From the IMG/VR virus record IMGVR_UViG_3300046740_000403, positions 1 through 33,930 of that record: DNA of 33,930 bases. One strand, 5' to 3'. The DNA is from a virus. The notes under the pieces were generated by a model. It did no database searches and had not been told where the DNA came from. It worked only from the letters and a program-made list of their open reading frames with translations. Below are positions 3,430 to 33,930 of the stretch, one piece after another; the first letter of the stretch is position 1, and each line of letters starts with the position of its first letter. The translations under genes were made by a program, and so were the position numbers.

Positions 3430-5225
3430 CGCACATCGATCCCACCTCGGGAGACTGGGTCGAGGACGACAACGGCCCCCCAATGATGCCCCCTGGGCTC
3501 GGGAGCATCGGCCAGCAGCTCAACGCCCCGGTGGCCCCTCCAAGCCTCCCCCCGGGCCCGCCGATGATCAAGATCGACGAGCCGATCAACATCAGCGCGA
3601 AGCCCGAGCCCCCGCCCATTCCCGGGCCGGCGGCGATCCCCCAGATTCCCGCCGTCGGGCCGATGACTCCGACTCCCCTCGGGCCGGCCCCGGTTCCCGG
3701 CCCCCGCCAGGTGATCACCAAGCAGGAACTTCAGTCACCCGGCGAGGTGGCCGCGCGCCAGGACCGCGCAAATGCCGTAGCCGGTCTCCGGGAGACCGCT
3801 GGGCAACAAGGGGAGGTAAACGCCGCCAAGGCCACAAACGAGGCCACCCAAGCCGATGAGTACCAGAAGCTTCTGGCACAGCAGCAGGAGGCCGCAGCCA
3901 AGGAGAAGGCCGCTTGGGACGCCCGGAAGGCCAAGGACGCGCAGATCGTCGCCCAGGCCCGCGAGGATGGGCTGAAGGACCCCAACGCGGGGGAGAGCTT
4001 CGGGCACAAGTTGCTTTCAGCTCTCGCCATCGGCCTGGGCCAGTATAGCGCGGCGATGACCCACACCGACAACGCCGCGGCCCGCATCTTCGAGGACGCG
4101 CGCAAGGAGGCCCTGGGGCGTCAGCAGGCGAAGATCACGGCAGCCGAGAAGGCGGGCGAGCTCACCCACGAACAGGCCCGGGAGGCGATGTCGGACCTCC
4201 AAGCGAAAGACCTGGGTCAGATCCAAGCCTTCAACGCGCGGTGGAAAGCCGAATCCGCGAAGCTGGGCATCCCCCAGGCCAGGATCGACGCGAACAAGAA
4301 CACCCAGACGCTCGACAAGGCCGAGGCCGAGGCCACGGCGAAGCTGGACCAGGCTGACCGGATCACGGTTCGCGACCTGACCCCGAAGGAGTTGAAGGAA
4401 GGCAAGCCGAAGGGAACAGGCGGCGGTGGCGGGGCGATCTCCGAGCTGGCGCAGATGAAGCAGGACGGGGCCGATCCCGCGGCGATCCAGCGGCGCGCCG
4501 AACAGCTGCACATCAAGCCGAAGGATTACCTCCCCGTCATCAAGGACGTCGAGGCTGGCAACAAGCCCGGCGGTGGCGGGATCGGTAGCGTGCGGCAAAA
4601 TGCCGTCCTTGGGAACCTGGCCGAGGCCGAGAAGGCCGCCAAGGACATCACTCCCGGCGGCGTCTCGATGGACTCGATCCAGAAGCTCCAGACGAACGAA
4701 GAGACGTCGAAGGCCGCGCACCACTCGGCCGAGGGCGGCGTGTTCGGGAACCTCGCCGCTCGAGCTGCGCGGATGACGGGGGCCGCGGCCCGAGGCAGGT
4801 ACGACGGCATCCCGGAGGACCAGCAGAAGAAGATCACGGCAGCCGAGCAAGTGATCACCCACCTCACCGAAATGCAGCAGGGCAAGAACATCGAGACGCT
4901 CGAGCAGTACCGCGATCGGTATTCCCCCTACGTCCCCGGCCTGTCCGAGGCCGAGGTCCGCCGGCGGGAGAAGGCGCTCCCGGGGCTCGTGAAAGAACAG
5001 CGCGCGATTCAGGATCCGGCGGGCGTCGGCCTAAAGCGCCAGAAGGCCGCAGAGGGCCCCGATCCGCGCATTGAGCAGGCCAAGGCGGTGCTGGCCGACC
5101 CGAAGGCGTCCGCGCGCCTCTCCCCCGCGGAGCGGGCGTATCTGCTCAAGGTGACGCGGCCCCAGAAGAAGACGGCCGCGCCCGCCGACAACGGCGGTAA
5201 CCCCCTCGACGACATCACCCTCTGA
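3426..5225 (+). CDS. large helical internal virion protein
   Basis: The 599-residue product has a Pro-rich N-terminal third (repeated PGPP, PPIPGPAAIP, PLGPAPVPGP) followed by long Ala/Glu/Lys-rich helices (KEKAAWDARKAKDAQIVAQA, then ITAAEKAGELTHEQAREA) likely to form coiled coils. There is a Gly-rich hinge (GTGGGGGAIS) near the middle. The C-terminus is NPLDDITL. Size and composition resemble podovirus ejection proteins, which leave the capsid with the DNA to form a conduit across the envelope; this is inference. The stop overlaps the next start as TGATG, so the two are coupled. Confidence 0.6.
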   Translation: MAHIDPTSGDWVEDDNGPPMMPPGLGSIGQQLNAPVAPPSLPPGPPMIKIDEPINISAKPEPPPIPGPAAIPQIPAVGPMTPTPLGPAPVPGPRQVITKQELQSPGEVAARQDRANAVAGLRETAGQQGEVNAAKATNEATQADEYQKLLAQQQEAAAKEKAAWDARKAKDAQIVAQAREDGLKDPNAGESFGHKLLSALAIGLGQYSAAMTHTDNAAARIFEDARKEALGRQQAKITAAEKAGELTHEQAREAMSDLQAKDLGQIQAFNARWKAESAKLGIPQARIDANKNTQTLDKAEAEATAKLDQADRITVRDLTPKELKEGKPKGTGGGGGAISELAQMKQDGADPAAIQRRAEQLHIKPKDYLPVIKDVEAGNKPGGGGIGSVRQNAVLGNLAEAEKAAKDITPGGVSMDSIQKLQTNEETSKAAHHSAEGGVFGNLAARAARMTGAAARGRYDGIPEDQQKKITAAEQVITHLTEMQQGKNIETLEQYRDRYSPYVPGLSEAEVRRREKALPGLVKEQRAIQDPAGVGLKRQKAAEGPDPRIEQAKAVLADPKASARLSPAERAYLLKVTRPQKKTAAPADNGGNPLDDITL

Positions 5226-25739: not shown

Positions 25740-26335
25740 AATGGCGGCTCCTTCCCGTCGGCCAGATCGCGGATCATCTTCGTGATCTCGGAACGTCCGG
25801 GGCTCTCGAGCTGCGGTCGCTGCTCGGGTTGACCCGGGATCTTCACCTGGACGTCGCCGCCGGCCGGGAACGCGCCCCGTAACGCCTCCCCGTGCAAACC
25901 CTCAGAGGGAAGCTCCGAGAACGCCACATAGAGCCGCTCGAACTCCTTGCGAGCCCACACGTCGAGCTCCGTGACCTTCATCTGGCAGAGCCGATCCCAG
26001 CCCCCCATGTTGCGGAGGCAGGCGTTCACCCGGGGGCCAAAGTCGATCGAGCGGACGGTGTAGTCGTGCTGGTCGACGGCCCGGCGCACGTAGTCCCATG
26101 CCTTGGCGATCTCGGCCTCGACGTTGCGGCCGCGCCCGGCGAGCGTCAGCAGTTCGGACGGCGCCGGCATGAACTTGCACGACTTGACCGCCCGCTCCGT
26201 TGCGGCTGCGAATTCCTGCTCGGTCAAGTCCTTGAGGGCGAGCCAGTACCCCTCGATCGCCGGGGGCGAGAGCCGGCGGTCGAACGTCGCCCCGAGCACT
26301 CCGAGGGCCGTGATGAATGCGTCCTTCTCGTTCAC
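25736..26335 (-). CDS. replication protein, DUF6475/helicase-loader-like
   Basis: The 199-residue product has the layout of phage helicase-loader-type proteins: N-terminal helices (AFITALGVLGATFDRRLSP), an aromatic segment (YWLALKDLTEQEFAAATERA) and the typical SCKFMPAPSELLTLAGR. The C-terminus is Pro/Gln-rich with KMIRDLADGKEPPF. Such proteins help load the host replicative helicase at the phage origin. GTG 26335 follows AAGGAGG. It lies directly after a replication-initiation-type gene, which supports the call. The family name is from memory of motif pattern, not a search. Confidence 0.6.
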   Translation of the reverse strand: MNEKDAFITALGVLGATFDRRLSPPAIEGYWLALKDLTEQEFAAATERAVKSCKFMPAPSELLTLAGRGRNVEAEIAKAWDYVRRAVDQHDYTVRSIDFGPRVNACLRNMGGWDRLCQMKVTELDVWARKEFERLYVAFSELPSEGLHGEALRGAFPAGGDVQVKIPGQPEQRPQLESPGRSEITKMIRDLADGKEPPF

Positions 26336-26946
26336 CGCGCTGCCTCCTTCGCTCGCCAGTCGAGCAAATCGTCCAAGTTGCCGTCATGTCGGGCCGGGCG
26401 ACCGACCGGCCGCGGGCGGCGGTCAACCTCGTCCTTCCACCGCTCCCCGTTCAGCCAGGTCGCGGCGTGCGGCACCTTATCGGGATCGCGCAGCCGGAAC
26501 TCGATCGCCTGATCTCGAATCGCGGAGATAATTAGATCGGCCGAGTGATCCAATTCGCGACTGATCCACATTTTCAGCGCGGCCGCGCGGGCTACCTTCC
26601 TCGGGTATTCGGCCCAGAACTCCCCAAACCTGGGGGGCTCGTCCTTCAACGCGCGCGCTCCGGAAGGCTTCGAAGAAGCCGATCCGGGAAGAACGGACAG
26701 ATCAACCAGAGCAGAGGGAGAGCCCCCCAAACCCCCCAAAGTCTGCCTGTCGGCTGCCTGTCGGCTGCCGCCGTTGCCGGCAGAGTCTGTAGCCGTTGCC
26801 GGCAACCATTGATCCAATTTCTCTGGAGGGGTCGAAGTCCAAAACCGGCCGTCCACGTCACAGCGTCGAAGCCGGGCGATCCCGCCTGCCTTGGTTGGTT
26901 CCGTCTTGAGCACGCGCGTTCGTCCTTTGCAGGTCGGGCAGACCAC
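26332..26946 (-). CDS. replication-initiation-type protein with zinc ribbon
   Basis: The 204-residue product has an N-terminal zinc ribbon (VCPTCKGRTRVLKTEPTKAG, RLRRCDVDGRFW) like that of NrdR. A linker follows. The C-terminal block FGEFWAEYPRKVARAAALKM with HAATWLNGERWKDE is the pattern seen at the end of many phage replisome-organiser proteins. The start is GTG 26946. With the adjacent helicase-loader-like gene it forms a replication pair. Fusion of a NrdR-like ribbon to this block is unusual to me. Confidence 0.66.
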   Translation of the reverse strand: MVCPTCKGRTRVLKTEPTKAGGIARLRRCDVDGRFWTSTPPEKLDQWLPATATDSAGNGGSRQAADRQTLGGLGGSPSALVDLSVLPGSASSKPSGARALKDEPPRFGEFWAEYPRKVARAAALKMWISRELDHSADLIISAIRDQAIEFRLRDPDKVPHAATWLNGERWKDEVDRRPRPVGRPARHDGNLDDLLDWRAKEAAR

Positions 26947-30023: not shown

Positions 30024-30200
30024 CTAGCCCCGGCGCTTCGGTTTCTTCGAGGCTCTTGGCGGCTTCTTCGGTTCTTCCGGGAGGTCGATCCAGTGGAACG
30101 GCTCGCCCGGTCCCGTGAACTTCTCGGCGAGAAGGCCCGAGGTCGTCACGACGTAGATTTTCCCGTCGATGGGGGCTACCTGGCGGATGCGGACCTTCAC
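30024..30200 (-). CDS. small basic protein
   Basis: GTG 30200 overlaps the exonuclease stop as GTGA and gives 58 residues: VKVRIRQVAPIDGKIYVVTT, SGLLAEKF and a Lys/Pro-rich end (EEPKKPPRASKKPKRRG). The first half is beta-like, the tail strongly basic. It may bind nucleic acid or the exonuclease, but no family is recognised. Confidence 0.58.
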   Translation of the reverse strand: MKVRIRQVAPIDGKIYVVTTSGLLAEKFTGPGEPFHWIDLPEEPKKPPRASKKPKRRG

Positions 30201-30874
30201 GCCGCCACCGCGCAATTCTTCCGTTCCCAACAGGCCCCGCAGTGCGGGCCGGGGTGCGGCTGATCGTCCAGTGCTGCGGCCGTCTCGATCGCCTCAGCCA
30301 TGATTGACGCCCCGGGGGAGCGTAGATCCACCTCCTCACCCATATCCCACCGCCCTTCCCTGGCGTAGTAGATTCCCGGCTGGTAGGCGCGGGCCTTCCA
30401 TTTCTGAGCCAGGGCAACCCCGGCGGCATTCACCTGGAGGTTGTCCCAGGCCGGGGGCGCCAGCGTCCGCCCGGTCTTCCAATCGACCGAGACCAACACG
30501 TCGCCGACCATCCAACAGGCGTCAGCCCGGCCAGCGGTGATCAGCGGCTCACCGTCGAGGGATACGTAGACGTGCGACCCTTCGGGCTTCTCCTCGACGG
30601 GCGAGAACATCCCCCACTTATTCAGCCCCCACGCGACTTCGAGCTCGACCCCGTCGGGCCACGTCCACCCGTTCTCGATCATGATGTCGAGCCATCCGAT
30701 GACGTCCCCGTCGACCTGCGGTGGGATGCGCCCGGTGTCGTGCCACTCCTTGAGCGCGGCATGAAAGGCTGTCCCCTTCGCCGCCGCCTTGTCTCGCGTC
30801 GGGCGGGGGTTGAGGTTGGACAGCAACCGATGATGCGCGCAGAAGCGGGAGAGCTGGGAGGCGGTCCACATCAT
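30197..30874 (-). CDS. PD-(D/E)XK exonuclease, Cas4/RecB-like with probable Fe-S site
   Basis: The 225-residue product has the motif order of Cas4/RecB-type nucleases: His38 (GTAFHAAL), Asp118 (AGRADACW) and Asp131-x-Lys133 (SVDWKTG). Cys12 plus Cys212, Cys215 and Cys221 (CGACWERKNC) have the spacing of a 4Fe-4S cluster. It would resect DNA ends 5' to 3' or process ends for annealing. It is coupled to the ERF annealing gene, giving a two-component recombination module. The family is clear in type, not in subgroup. Confidence 0.75.
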   Translation of the reverse strand: MMWTASQLSRFCAHHRLLSNLNPRPTRDKAAAKGTAFHAALKEWHDTGRIPPQVDGDVIGWLDIMIENGWTWPDGVELEVAWGLNKWGMFSPVEEKPEGSHVYVSLDGEPLITAGRADACWMVGDVLVSVDWKTGRTLAPPAWDNLQVNAAGVALAQKWKARAYQPGIYYAREGRWDMGEEVDLRSPGASIMAEAIETAAALDDQPHPGPHCGACWERKNCAVAA

Positions 30875-31530
30875 GCCGCCGCCAGGAGCTTAATCGCTTT
30901 CTCAGCCTCGAACTTCGTCAGCCTCTCGGGGTTGTCGGTGCCGAAGTATTCCTTGAGCCACTTCTTGGCCTCCGTCCCCTTCGGGTACTTCGCCAGCGCA
31001 GCCGATCGGAGGCTGTGAAGCGTGACCTCGTCGATGGCCTCACCAGGGTCCGCCGGATCGGCGGGTTTGTTCGCCGGCTTCCCCCAACTCGACCCCGGGG
31101 GTTTCGCGTCCCGGCTTCGGCCTTCCGCCTTCTCCCCGTCGTCGTCCTCGGTGGCCACGCCCGTCATGCCGGCAAGCGAGTACCGACGGAGGTAGGTCCA
31201 GACCGATCCGATCGCCTGGGGCCCGTTATCCTTCGGCTGAGCCAGCGCCGTGCACGCCATCCACTGCCCCGACGAGTGAGCGAGCATCGTTCGCACGCCG
31301 CACCTTCCCTCGCGGTTCACGGTCCCCTGAATCACGGCGATCCCGTTCTTCGTCAGCGGGGCGCGGCATGCCTCGGTGACCTCGGCCAGGTCGGCATACT
31401 TGCTTTTGAAGAAGGGATTATCAGCCGACTTCTTGGCGTTCTTCACTTCGGCCTGGGCCTTCGCCAGCGCCCCGGCGATCTCGTTGATCTGCTCGCTCTG
31501 TTCCCACTCGGTCGTGACTACATCGCTCAT
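30871..31530 (-). CDS. erf: ERF-family single-strand annealing protein
   Basis: ATG 31530 overlaps the upstream stop as ATGA and gives 219 residues. The core NPFFKSKYADLAEVTEACRA with LTKNGIAVIQGTV and the later SVWTYLRRYSLAGMTGVATE is the hallmark of ERF recombinases. A Pro/Lys-rich linker and small C-terminal helical domain follow (KYPKGTEAKKWLKEYFGT). ERF anneals complementary strands and aids genome circularisation and recombination. A longer upstream frame has no ribosome site. Confidence 0.85.
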   Translation of the reverse strand: MSDVVTTEWEQSEQINEIAGALAKAQAEVKNAKKSADNPFFKSKYADLAEVTEACRAPLTKNGIAVIQGTVNREGRCGVRTMLAHSSGQWMACTALAQPKDNGPQAIGSVWTYLRRYSLAGMTGVATEDDDGEKAEGRSRDAKPPGSSWGKPANKPADPADPGEAIDEVTLHSLRSAALAKYPKGTEAKKWLKEYFGTDNPERLTKFEAEKAIKLLAAA

Positions 31531-32043: not shown

Positions 32044-32233
32044 CTGTATCCTCCAGAGGCACAACCTCGACCCTCAGGCCGAGAAGGGTTCCAAGATTCT
32101 GAGCTTCGAGAGCGTGAGGGGCGCAGAAGTCCCACACGCGGGTGATGTCTGGCGCGCGAACGCGGGACGTGGCCTCGGCGTCGCAGCCTTCTCGCGTGCA
32201 GCGCTTACCCACGGGGAATGACCTCGGTGACAT
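32033..32233 (-). CDS. small Cys/His protein
   Basis: ATG 32233 follows GGGGAG by a normal distance and gives 66 residues: MSPRSFPVGKRCTREGCDAE, ATSRVRAPDITRVWDFCAPH. The CxxxxC and CAPH groups could hold one zinc. The end is hydrophobic and acidic (LLGLRVEVVPLEDTDGK). It overlaps the upstream gene by 29 bases; GTG 32212 is an alternative start with less overlap. Confidence 0.52.
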   Translation of the reverse strand: MSPRSFPVGKRCTREGCDAEATSRVRAPDITRVWDFCAPHALEAQNLGTLLGLRVEVVPLEDTDGK

Positions 32234-32414
32234 CGCGCTCCCCGCTCCCGTTGCACGTGGGGCACGTCGTGTACTCGAGCCCCTTCCCGGCATGACCGCC
32301 GAAGCCGTCACAGTCGGGGCAGGCATTCGGATCGGCCGCGTCGTCAAGGGCCTGCTCGTGCTCATCCGTCGACAAGTCCAGATACGAAAGGGAGCCGTAG
32401 TCACGTCCGCTCAT
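32205..32414 (-). CDS. DnaJ-type zinc-finger small protein
   Basis: The 69-residue product starts MSGRDYGSLSYLDLSTDEHE and has two CxxCxGxG units: CPDCDGFGG and CPTCNGSG. These are the repeated units of the DnaJ cysteine-rich domain, here without a J domain. It is the first gene after the operator-containing promoter, so it should be among the first expressed. A GAGG sequence lies upstream of ATG 32414. A chaperone-like or RNA/DNA-binding role is open. Confidence 0.68.
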   Translation of the reverse strand: MSGRDYGSLSYLDLSTDEHEQALDDAADPNACPDCDGFGGHAGKGLEYTTCPTCNGSGERDVTEVIPRG

Positions 32415-32432
32415 CTCGTCACCTCGTTGAAC

Positions 32433-32461
32433 AATCTAGTTGAACGTTCAACGGCTGTCCA
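32433..32461 (-). promoter_or_regulatory. early leftward promoter with operator in spacer
   Basis: On the minus strand TGGACA (-35, one mismatch to TTGACA) and TAGATT (-10, two mismatches to TATAAT) are separated by exactly 17 bases. The perfect palindrome TTGAACGTTCAA (32440-32451) lies inside that spacer. A half-site TTGAAC (32427-32432) sits just downstream, and GTTCAA (32482-32487) upstream. A repressor bound here would block RNA polymerase. The first gene starts at 32414. Confidence 0.7.
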
Positions 32462-32491
32462 CAAGTATTTTCACCTGGGGCGTTCAAGGGT

Positions 32492-32983
32492 CTATTCCTC
32501 GACGAAGCCGCCCGGCCAGTGGGCGCGGTCGGCGGGCCAGTCGATGAGGGTGGCGATCTTGTTCGCGAAGCTACGCCGAATCGGCGTGTCCCGCCGGCAC
32601 ATGCTCAAGAGGGCCTGTGACATCCCGACCTTGTCGGCCATCTCGTTTTGCGAGATCTTCTTGGCCTTGAGGGCGCGCCGCCAGGGCGTTTGTCTGCGCC
32701 CACCCGAGATCGCAAGTCGCTGGTGATCTTCCATGTCTCGACTGTTCAAGGTAGACGACGTTGAACGTTTATGCAAGACTCTCGGCGGATGAATCACCTT
32801 CGGCCAAGCAGCGGCGCCCAGCTCGGGGAACGTGGGCTCAAGGGCGGTCACCCACTCGGCGGGGATGCCGTTGGCGTGGAAGGCGGCCAGCATCTCGTCG
32901 GTGAGCCCGACCTCATCCTGGAACGCGGCGCGGAGCTTCTTCTCGATGGCGGCTTTGATCTCGTCGAGGGTGAGCGGCTTCAT
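32492..32983 (-). CDS. XRE-type HTH regulator; possibly two products in one frame
   Basis: One open frame spans 163 codons from ATG 32983. The C-terminal part from internal ATG 32734 (MEDHQRLAISGGRRQTPWRR) is an 80-residue Cro/CI-like domain. Its helix-turn-helix is ISQNEMADKVGMSQALLSMC. The N-terminal part (MKPLTLDEIKAAIEKKLRAA) uses typical G+C-rich codons and looks like another protein. The joint between them (about 32735-32785) has poor coding character and contains operator-like sites. The short form, from an internal promoter, is the likely repressor or Cro. The long form may be a real fusion or a lost stop. Confidence 0.6.
   Translation of the reverse strand: MKPLTLDEIKAAIEKKLRAAFQDEVGLTDEMLAAFHANGIPAEWVTALEPTFPELGAAAWPKVIHPPRVLHKRSTSSTLNSRDMEDHQRLAISGGRRQTPWRRALKAKKISQNEMADKVGMSQALLSMCRRDTPIRRSFANKIATLIDWPADRAHWPGGFVEE
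32744..32772. promoter_or_regulatory. operator-like sites at regulator start
   Basis: GTTCAA (32744-32749) and TTGAACGTTTAT (32761-32772, two mismatches to the palindrome TTGAACGTTCAA) lie just upstream of ATG 32734. On the minus strand TTGCAT, 17 bases, TACCTT could be a weak promoter overlapping them. Binding here would allow autoregulation of the HTH gene, or control of rightward transcription. Confidence 0.55.
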
Positions 32984-33000
32984 TGGGCGGGAACCCTAAC

Positions 33001-33327
33001 ATGAGCCGTTGCCCGTCGATGTCTCCCGTGGGCTCGCCGAACCGCGGCCAGACGCGAGCCCCGTGGAAAGAGATGATCGAGCGTCGGTCCCTGCCCTGCT
33101 ACCATGAGGCTGGTCACGCTGGTCCCCATGAAGCTGAGGACCGCATCGCCGAGTGGGAAGATGCCGCGACGTATCCGTCTCTCGTGCTCCGGGAGCGCGC
33201 CCTCCATGGGACAGCAGCGAGAAAGCTGAGGCTGTGGGGGTCGAGCAAGCTGACAGCGCGTGACGTGCTGGCAGCGGTGTTGGAGTGGGAGGGGGTAGCG
33301 AGTAAACTGGAGGAGGCTGGAAAATGA
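33001..33327 (+). CDS. rightward early protein
   Basis: ATG 33001 begins 17 bases from the divergent ATG 32983. The 108-residue product has an N-terminal half with PCYHEAGHAGPHEAEDRIAE, which could bind metal through Cys and His, and a helical C-terminus (LTARDVLAAVLEWEGVASKL). The next gene overlaps its stop as ATGA. That coupling supports this frame over the antisense one. The family is unknown. Confidence 0.58.
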   Translation: MSRCPSMSPVGSPNRGQTRAPWKEMIERRSLPCYHEAGHAGPHEAEDRIAEWEDAATYPSLVLRERALHGTAARKLRLWGSSKLTARDVLAAVLEWEGVASKLEEAGK

Positions 33328-33930
33328 GGGACAAAGAGATAGGGGCCTTGCCCACCACGCCGAGGACGGCTTCCCCACAGAGCAGAGTGGGAGAGCGGTG
33401 GTCATGGGTGTCGCCGTACCTCAAGCATCATTGGGCCAAGGACTTCACCGTCGGCGGGCTGCACTTCGAGGACGGAGAGCCGGCGGGCTGGGACGTCGAG
33501 GGACACCCCGGGGAATGGTTTCGCTTCTCATCGTTTACCGACGGCACGCTCGAACCGGTCGGCCCCTCTACGGCGCCTATAGCGCCTCCCGTGAGACCGG
33601 AGCGGATTGAGGTTGGGCAGATGTGGCGACTAGACGGCTTGGAAAAGGTCCCGCACGCTATTGTTCGACTCGACGCTGAAAATGAATTCGCGTGGTTCGA
33701 TGACGGTGGATCTGGCGTGATGGGAAACATGTTGCGCGGCGGTGACTGGAAATTTCACGGCTGGGCCGACGGCTACGGTCCCCGCGCTCCAGTCCCTTCT
33801 CCGGGGGTAGCGCCGGGAGATTTGGCATTTGGCCCCGGTTCGCGCGATGACTCGGCGATGCCGAACAAGTGCGAGTGGAATATCCACAACGGGATGCGTC
33901 CGTGTGGCGCGTCCGATTGCATTCATCTGG
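33324..33930 (+). CDS. partial CDS, beta-rich protein running off the edge
   Basis: From ATG 33324, preceded by GGAGGAGG, the frame stays open for 202 codons to the window edge. The N-terminal part has short linkers, then an aromatic and Asp-rich segment (GWDVEGHPGEWFRFSSFTDG), then another (VGQMWRLDGLEKVPHAIVRL) and (WFDDGGSGVMGNMLRGGDWK). The visible end has Cys and His (NKCEWN, RPCGASDCIHL), suggesting a zinc site. The family is not recognised; the C-terminus is missing. Confidence 0.6.
   Translation, partial: MRDKEIGALPTTPRTASPQSRVGERWSWVSPYLKHHWAKDFTVGGLHFEDGEPAGWDVEGHPGEWFRFSSFTDGTLEPVGPSTAPIAPPVRPERIEVGQMWRLDGLEKVPHAIVRLDAENEFAWFDDGGSGVMGNMLRGGDWKFHGWADGYGPRAPVPSPGVAPGDLAFGPGSRDDSAMPNKCEWNIHNGMRPCGASDCIHL

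Follow-up and report, generated by a model that had tools for sequence, protein, structure and literature searches.

The 163-codon frame and its two coding segments

The window, by which we mean the whole stretch of DNA that was analyzed (33,930 nt; IMG/VR record IMGVR_UViG_3300046740_000403, positions 1-33,930), contains a minus-strand open reading frame that the ORF list places at exactly 32492-32983 and that encodes 163 residues, with in-frame start codons including ATG 32983, ATG 32893, and ATG 32734. Scoring this frame for codon usage, with a score trained on the phage's own other genes, resolved it into two coding segments that share one frame and are separated by ~80-100 bp without coding character, in agreement with an earlier note on this DNA that had read the frame as two protein-like parts with a poorly coding stretch between them. 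The upstream segment (MKPLTLDEIKAAIEKKLRAAFQDEVGLTDEMLAAFHANGIPAEWVTALEPTFPELG..., 32983-32813, minus strand) scored +31.6 in frame 0 against about -28 in each remaining minus frame, had a GC3 of 0.92, and has no stop codon of its own. The linker that follows it (32812-32735, minus strand) is open in frame and bears a putative internal control region; it scored -10.1, was positive in none of the minus frames, and had a GC3 of 0.41 over 32735-32802. The remaining segment (32734-32492, minus strand), which encodes the regulator described below, scored +18.9 in a frame identical to that of the upstream segment.

Because the upstream segment runs stop-free into the regulator, a ribosome starting at 32983 should yield a 163-residue fusion, and given the open frame it is possible that such a long form, with the upstream segment as its N-terminal part, can also be made. 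The 29-codon linker was stop-free by chance in ~33% of shuffles. The predicted structure of the 163-residue form had a pLDDT of 47, which is too low to interpret, and searches that included IMG/VR found neither a family nor a relative for the upstream segment (32813-32983). A consensus scan of 32200-33930 called no promoter on the minus strand upstream of 32983. On the opposite strand, an ORF with the motif CYHEAGHAGPH (33001-33327, plus strand) opens 17 bp away from ATG 32983; a promoter driving the long form would therefore have to fall inside that plus-strand ORF.

The probable short regulator and the only relative found

From ATG 32734 to 32492 on the minus strand the frame encodes 80 residues (MEDHQRLAISGGRR...WPGGFVEE). 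This protein matched Pfam HTH_3 with an E-value of 1.8e-4 at 22 bits, just below the curated cut-off of 23, and it matched the phage regulator families phrog_8 (E-value 2.9e-6) and phrog_7241 (2.1e-5). AlphaFold2 run on a two-sequence alignment predicted four helices with a confident core (pLDDT 83.6), and Foldseek placed C.BclI, SinR, CylR2, and lambda repressor at the top of the PDB matches to the predicted fold, all with E-values above 0.1; these matches are consistent with a common small helix-turn-helix fold and not with a close relative. Judged by its family matches and predicted fold, the 80-residue protein is probably a Cro/CI-type helix-turn-helix regulator of the ordinary phage repressor kind set in an unusual gene layout.

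The only relative that we found lies on a 55-kb IMG/VR contig, IMGVR_UViG_3300033475_000029 (loci L002-L004, L087, and L217). Its regulator, in locus L002, begins at ATG 4025; aligned to the window protein from the first Met, it shows 46% identity across 83 columns, the two sharing the residues M....RLAIS.GR at the aligned start. BLAST found no similarity between the window and L002 upstream of the regulator Met. Since the only relative found aligns from that Met on and not before, 32734 is very probably a real start. The internal ATG to which the earlier note had drawn attention is in frame and equivalent to the first Met of the homolog, with operator-like sites at that position in both phages. 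That note had also held that conservation of the same fused frame in relatives would count against its reading. In L002, 84 codons in frame ahead of the regulator are indeed free of stops, and positions 3833-4012 score weakly positive for coding (+3.2), while the upstream sequence itself is unrelated to that of the window. Eighty-four stop-free codons arose by chance in 14% of shuffles of L002; given this figure, the ~33% for the linker, and the weak L002 coding score, the shared fused frame is suggestive of a long form and not proof of one. The relative's neighbors resemble those of the window, with a small Cys-rich ORF followed by a larger ORF that is exonuclease-like as read from its sequence.

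IMG/VR searches with the full frame, the short form, the two-sequence alignment, and both upstream parts returned no further relative beyond that one contig. A DNA pattern for WPxDRxHWP matched 12 IMG/VR contigs, a relative being present in G001 alone; in genome contigs it matched at least 120, with none convincing among the matches listed. Tblastn found no relative of the regulator in phages and one weak match in plasmids (E-value 0.5), and a profile search of 50 viral records, mostly Erf-bearing, gave short weak matches only.

Operator-like sites, promoters, and neighboring genes

The earlier note had described operator-like sites within the frame. The sequence GTTCAA/TTGAAC occurs six times in the short stretches flanking the regulator on either side (143 positions together) vs ten times across the rest of the 34-kb window, far above chance (Poisson P about 1e-11, a descriptive value because the flanks were chosen after the sequence had been read). 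The longer GTTCAAC occurs four times locally vs twice elsewhere. Of all positions in the window, 32439 (0 mismatches) and 32760 (3 mismatches) match GTTGAACGTTCAAC most closely, and both flank the regulator. At the internal start the sites occupy 32744-32773, with GTTGAACGTTTATG at 32760-32773 and GTTCAA at 32744-32749; downstream of the regulator they occupy 32426-32487, with the perfect palindrome GTTGAACGTTCAAC at 32439-32452, a half site at 32426-32432, and GTTCAA at 32482-32487. In the relative the sites are of a different type, GTAACCA/TGGTTAC rather than the GTTGAACGTTCAAC type, with four occurrences locally vs none elsewhere in the 40 kb examined. At 4009-4040 of L002 the regulator ATG itself lies within operator repeats (TGTAACTGGTAACATGGTTACAG). 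Clustered sites thus lie in both phages just upstream of or over the regulator start, with a second group ahead of the next gene, and the differing site sequences are as expected for two repressors of differing specificity. Autoregulated phage repressors are laid out in this way.

The sole sigma-70-like promoter that the consensus scan called in 32200-33930, where 0.3 were expected, is TGGACA-17-TAGATT (32461-32433, minus strand). It lies downstream of the regulator, 18 nt before the ORF that begins at 32414, and has the perfect palindrome in its spacer. The earlier note had in addition proposed a weak promoter inside the frame. A candidate, TTGCAT-17-TACCTT (32776-32748, minus strand; 3+3 consensus bases, a weak match made by eye), does exist 13 nt before ATG 32734; it is absent from the calls of the scan. 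A similarly placed counterpart in L002, TTGCGC-17-TACTGT, lies 10 nt before ATG 4025 and is likewise a weak, by-eye match. Inspection of the sequence found no clear Shine-Dalgarno before 32734, so the regulator mRNA would probably be near-leaderless if the internal promoter is used.

The ORF beginning at 32414 (32205-32414, minus strand; Shine-Dalgarno GAGGTG) encodes a 69-residue zinc-ribbon-like protein and is the first gene of a leftward unit that also comprises an Erf-type annealing protein, a PD-(D/E)XK exonuclease, and an integrase. At 30197-31530 on the minus strand the exonuclease (phrog_69) adjoins a protein to which 339 stretches in IMG/VR are related; one of its distant DNA matches, in phage Pq0, was annotated as an Erf-like annealing protein. 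Further along the minus strand, 26332-26946 encodes a replication-initiation-like protein (phrog_270, 9474) whose N-terminus weakly matches an NrdR-type zinc ribbon.

Interpretation and comparison with known systems

We think it probable that the locus holds a short repressor gene whose own operator-controlled promoter lies inside an upstream open frame, and that this repressor controls both itself and the leftward unit. The 80-residue regulator would be transcribed from the internal promoter and would bind GTTGAACGTTCAAC-type sites there and at the called promoter that follows the gene (32461-32433); binding at both would place the regulator and the leftward unit under its control, with repression of each in the manner of an immunity repressor. 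The upstream segment would be a small coding sequence without a stop of its own, and translation from 32983 would give the 163-residue long form. The phage is likely of the temperate type and the regulator its likely immunity regulator, which would give the protein a role in lysogeny. Counting against a short gene are the single relative and the weak consensus match of the internal promoter; moreover, if the short gene were wholly separate, this would not explain why the upstream segment, strongly coding and in frame as it is, has no stop.

That same strongly coding segment, open into the regulator, suggests instead that both forms are used, a 163-residue protein from an upstream promoter and the 80-residue protein from the internal one, sharing a DNA-binding domain and differing in their N-termini and possibly in their roles. 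The open, weakly coding frame upstream of the L002 regulator and the known precedents in phiC31 and pIGRK point the same way, but the upstream parts of the two phages are unrelated, the openness of both frames is attainable by chance, the linker lacks coding character, and no promoter was called upstream of 32983, and we regard this reading as unlikely. Somewhat less likely still is that two separate genes were fused through mutation or sequencing error, either by a lost stop or by a one-base change hiding a TAA. The earlier note had the first part ending naturally at a +1-frame TAA near 32776; the TAA is actually at 32771-32769, in the -1 frame. That frame does offer a plausible C-terminus (LAEGDSSAESLA*, 10-12 codons), and the upstream segment has no stop of its own; a stop between the upstream small gene and the regulator may have been lost or never present. 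However, over 32803-32772 the -1 tail scored no better than frame 0 (-3.3 vs -4.2), which leaves a natural end at this TAA unsupported, and the one-base frameshift is likewise unsupported, because the two coding segments share a frame and the alternate-frame tail lacks coding signal; the upstream frame of the relative is open as well. A single 163-residue protein, with the internal ATG and the sites incidental, would account for a frame that is open throughout, but homology begins at the internal Met, the linker is noncoding, and operator-like sites cluster at the internal start in both phages, which makes it very improbable.

The short repressor gene that we favor would mean that a likely immunity regulator and its candidate operators have been identified for an otherwise unstudied phage, and that a gene caller would probably assign the wrong start (163 rather than 80 residues). 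A long form, if real, would make the locus a compact repressor with two products whose operators lie inside the coding frame. We hold it doubtful that, beyond this, promoter and operators embedded in the upstream frame let the short form block synthesis of the long form, in a small regulator family whose N-terminal parts are exchangeable between phages.

The regulator resembles Cro/CI-type (HTH_3, XRE) phage repressors in its predicted helix-turn-helix fold, in its place beside recombination and integration genes, and in its putative operators, which in both phages are specific and clustered at its own and at the neighboring early-type promoter. Unlike them, it is small and has no C-terminal oligomerization domain, it shares its direction with the operon it would control, and its family score falls just below the Pfam curated cut-off. 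Among solved structures, the controller (C) proteins of restriction-modification systems (C.BclI, C.AhdI) gave the closest matches in sequence and in fold, all of low significance; they are small autoregulators of helix-turn-helix fold whose transcripts are often leaderless (PMC4824078), and the window regulator would share their autoregulation. Restriction and methyltransferase genes, which neighbor C proteins, were absent from beside the regulator among the ORFs and families examined, where its neighbors are zinc-ribbon, exonuclease, and integrase genes. In Streptomyces phage phiC31 a single in-frame locus gives repressor forms that differ N-terminally (Smith and Owen 1991, as cited in PMC4557955). 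The window frame permits N-terminally nested forms of this kind, a likeness that rests on the open frame; the upstream extension is not conserved between the window and L002. The repR gene of plasmid pIGRK yields full-length RepR and the internally started RepR' from one frame, both DNA-binding and both autoregulating (PMC6854812); RepR is a plasmid replication protein and the window protein a putative phage repressor, and the likeness drawn between them is one of layout.
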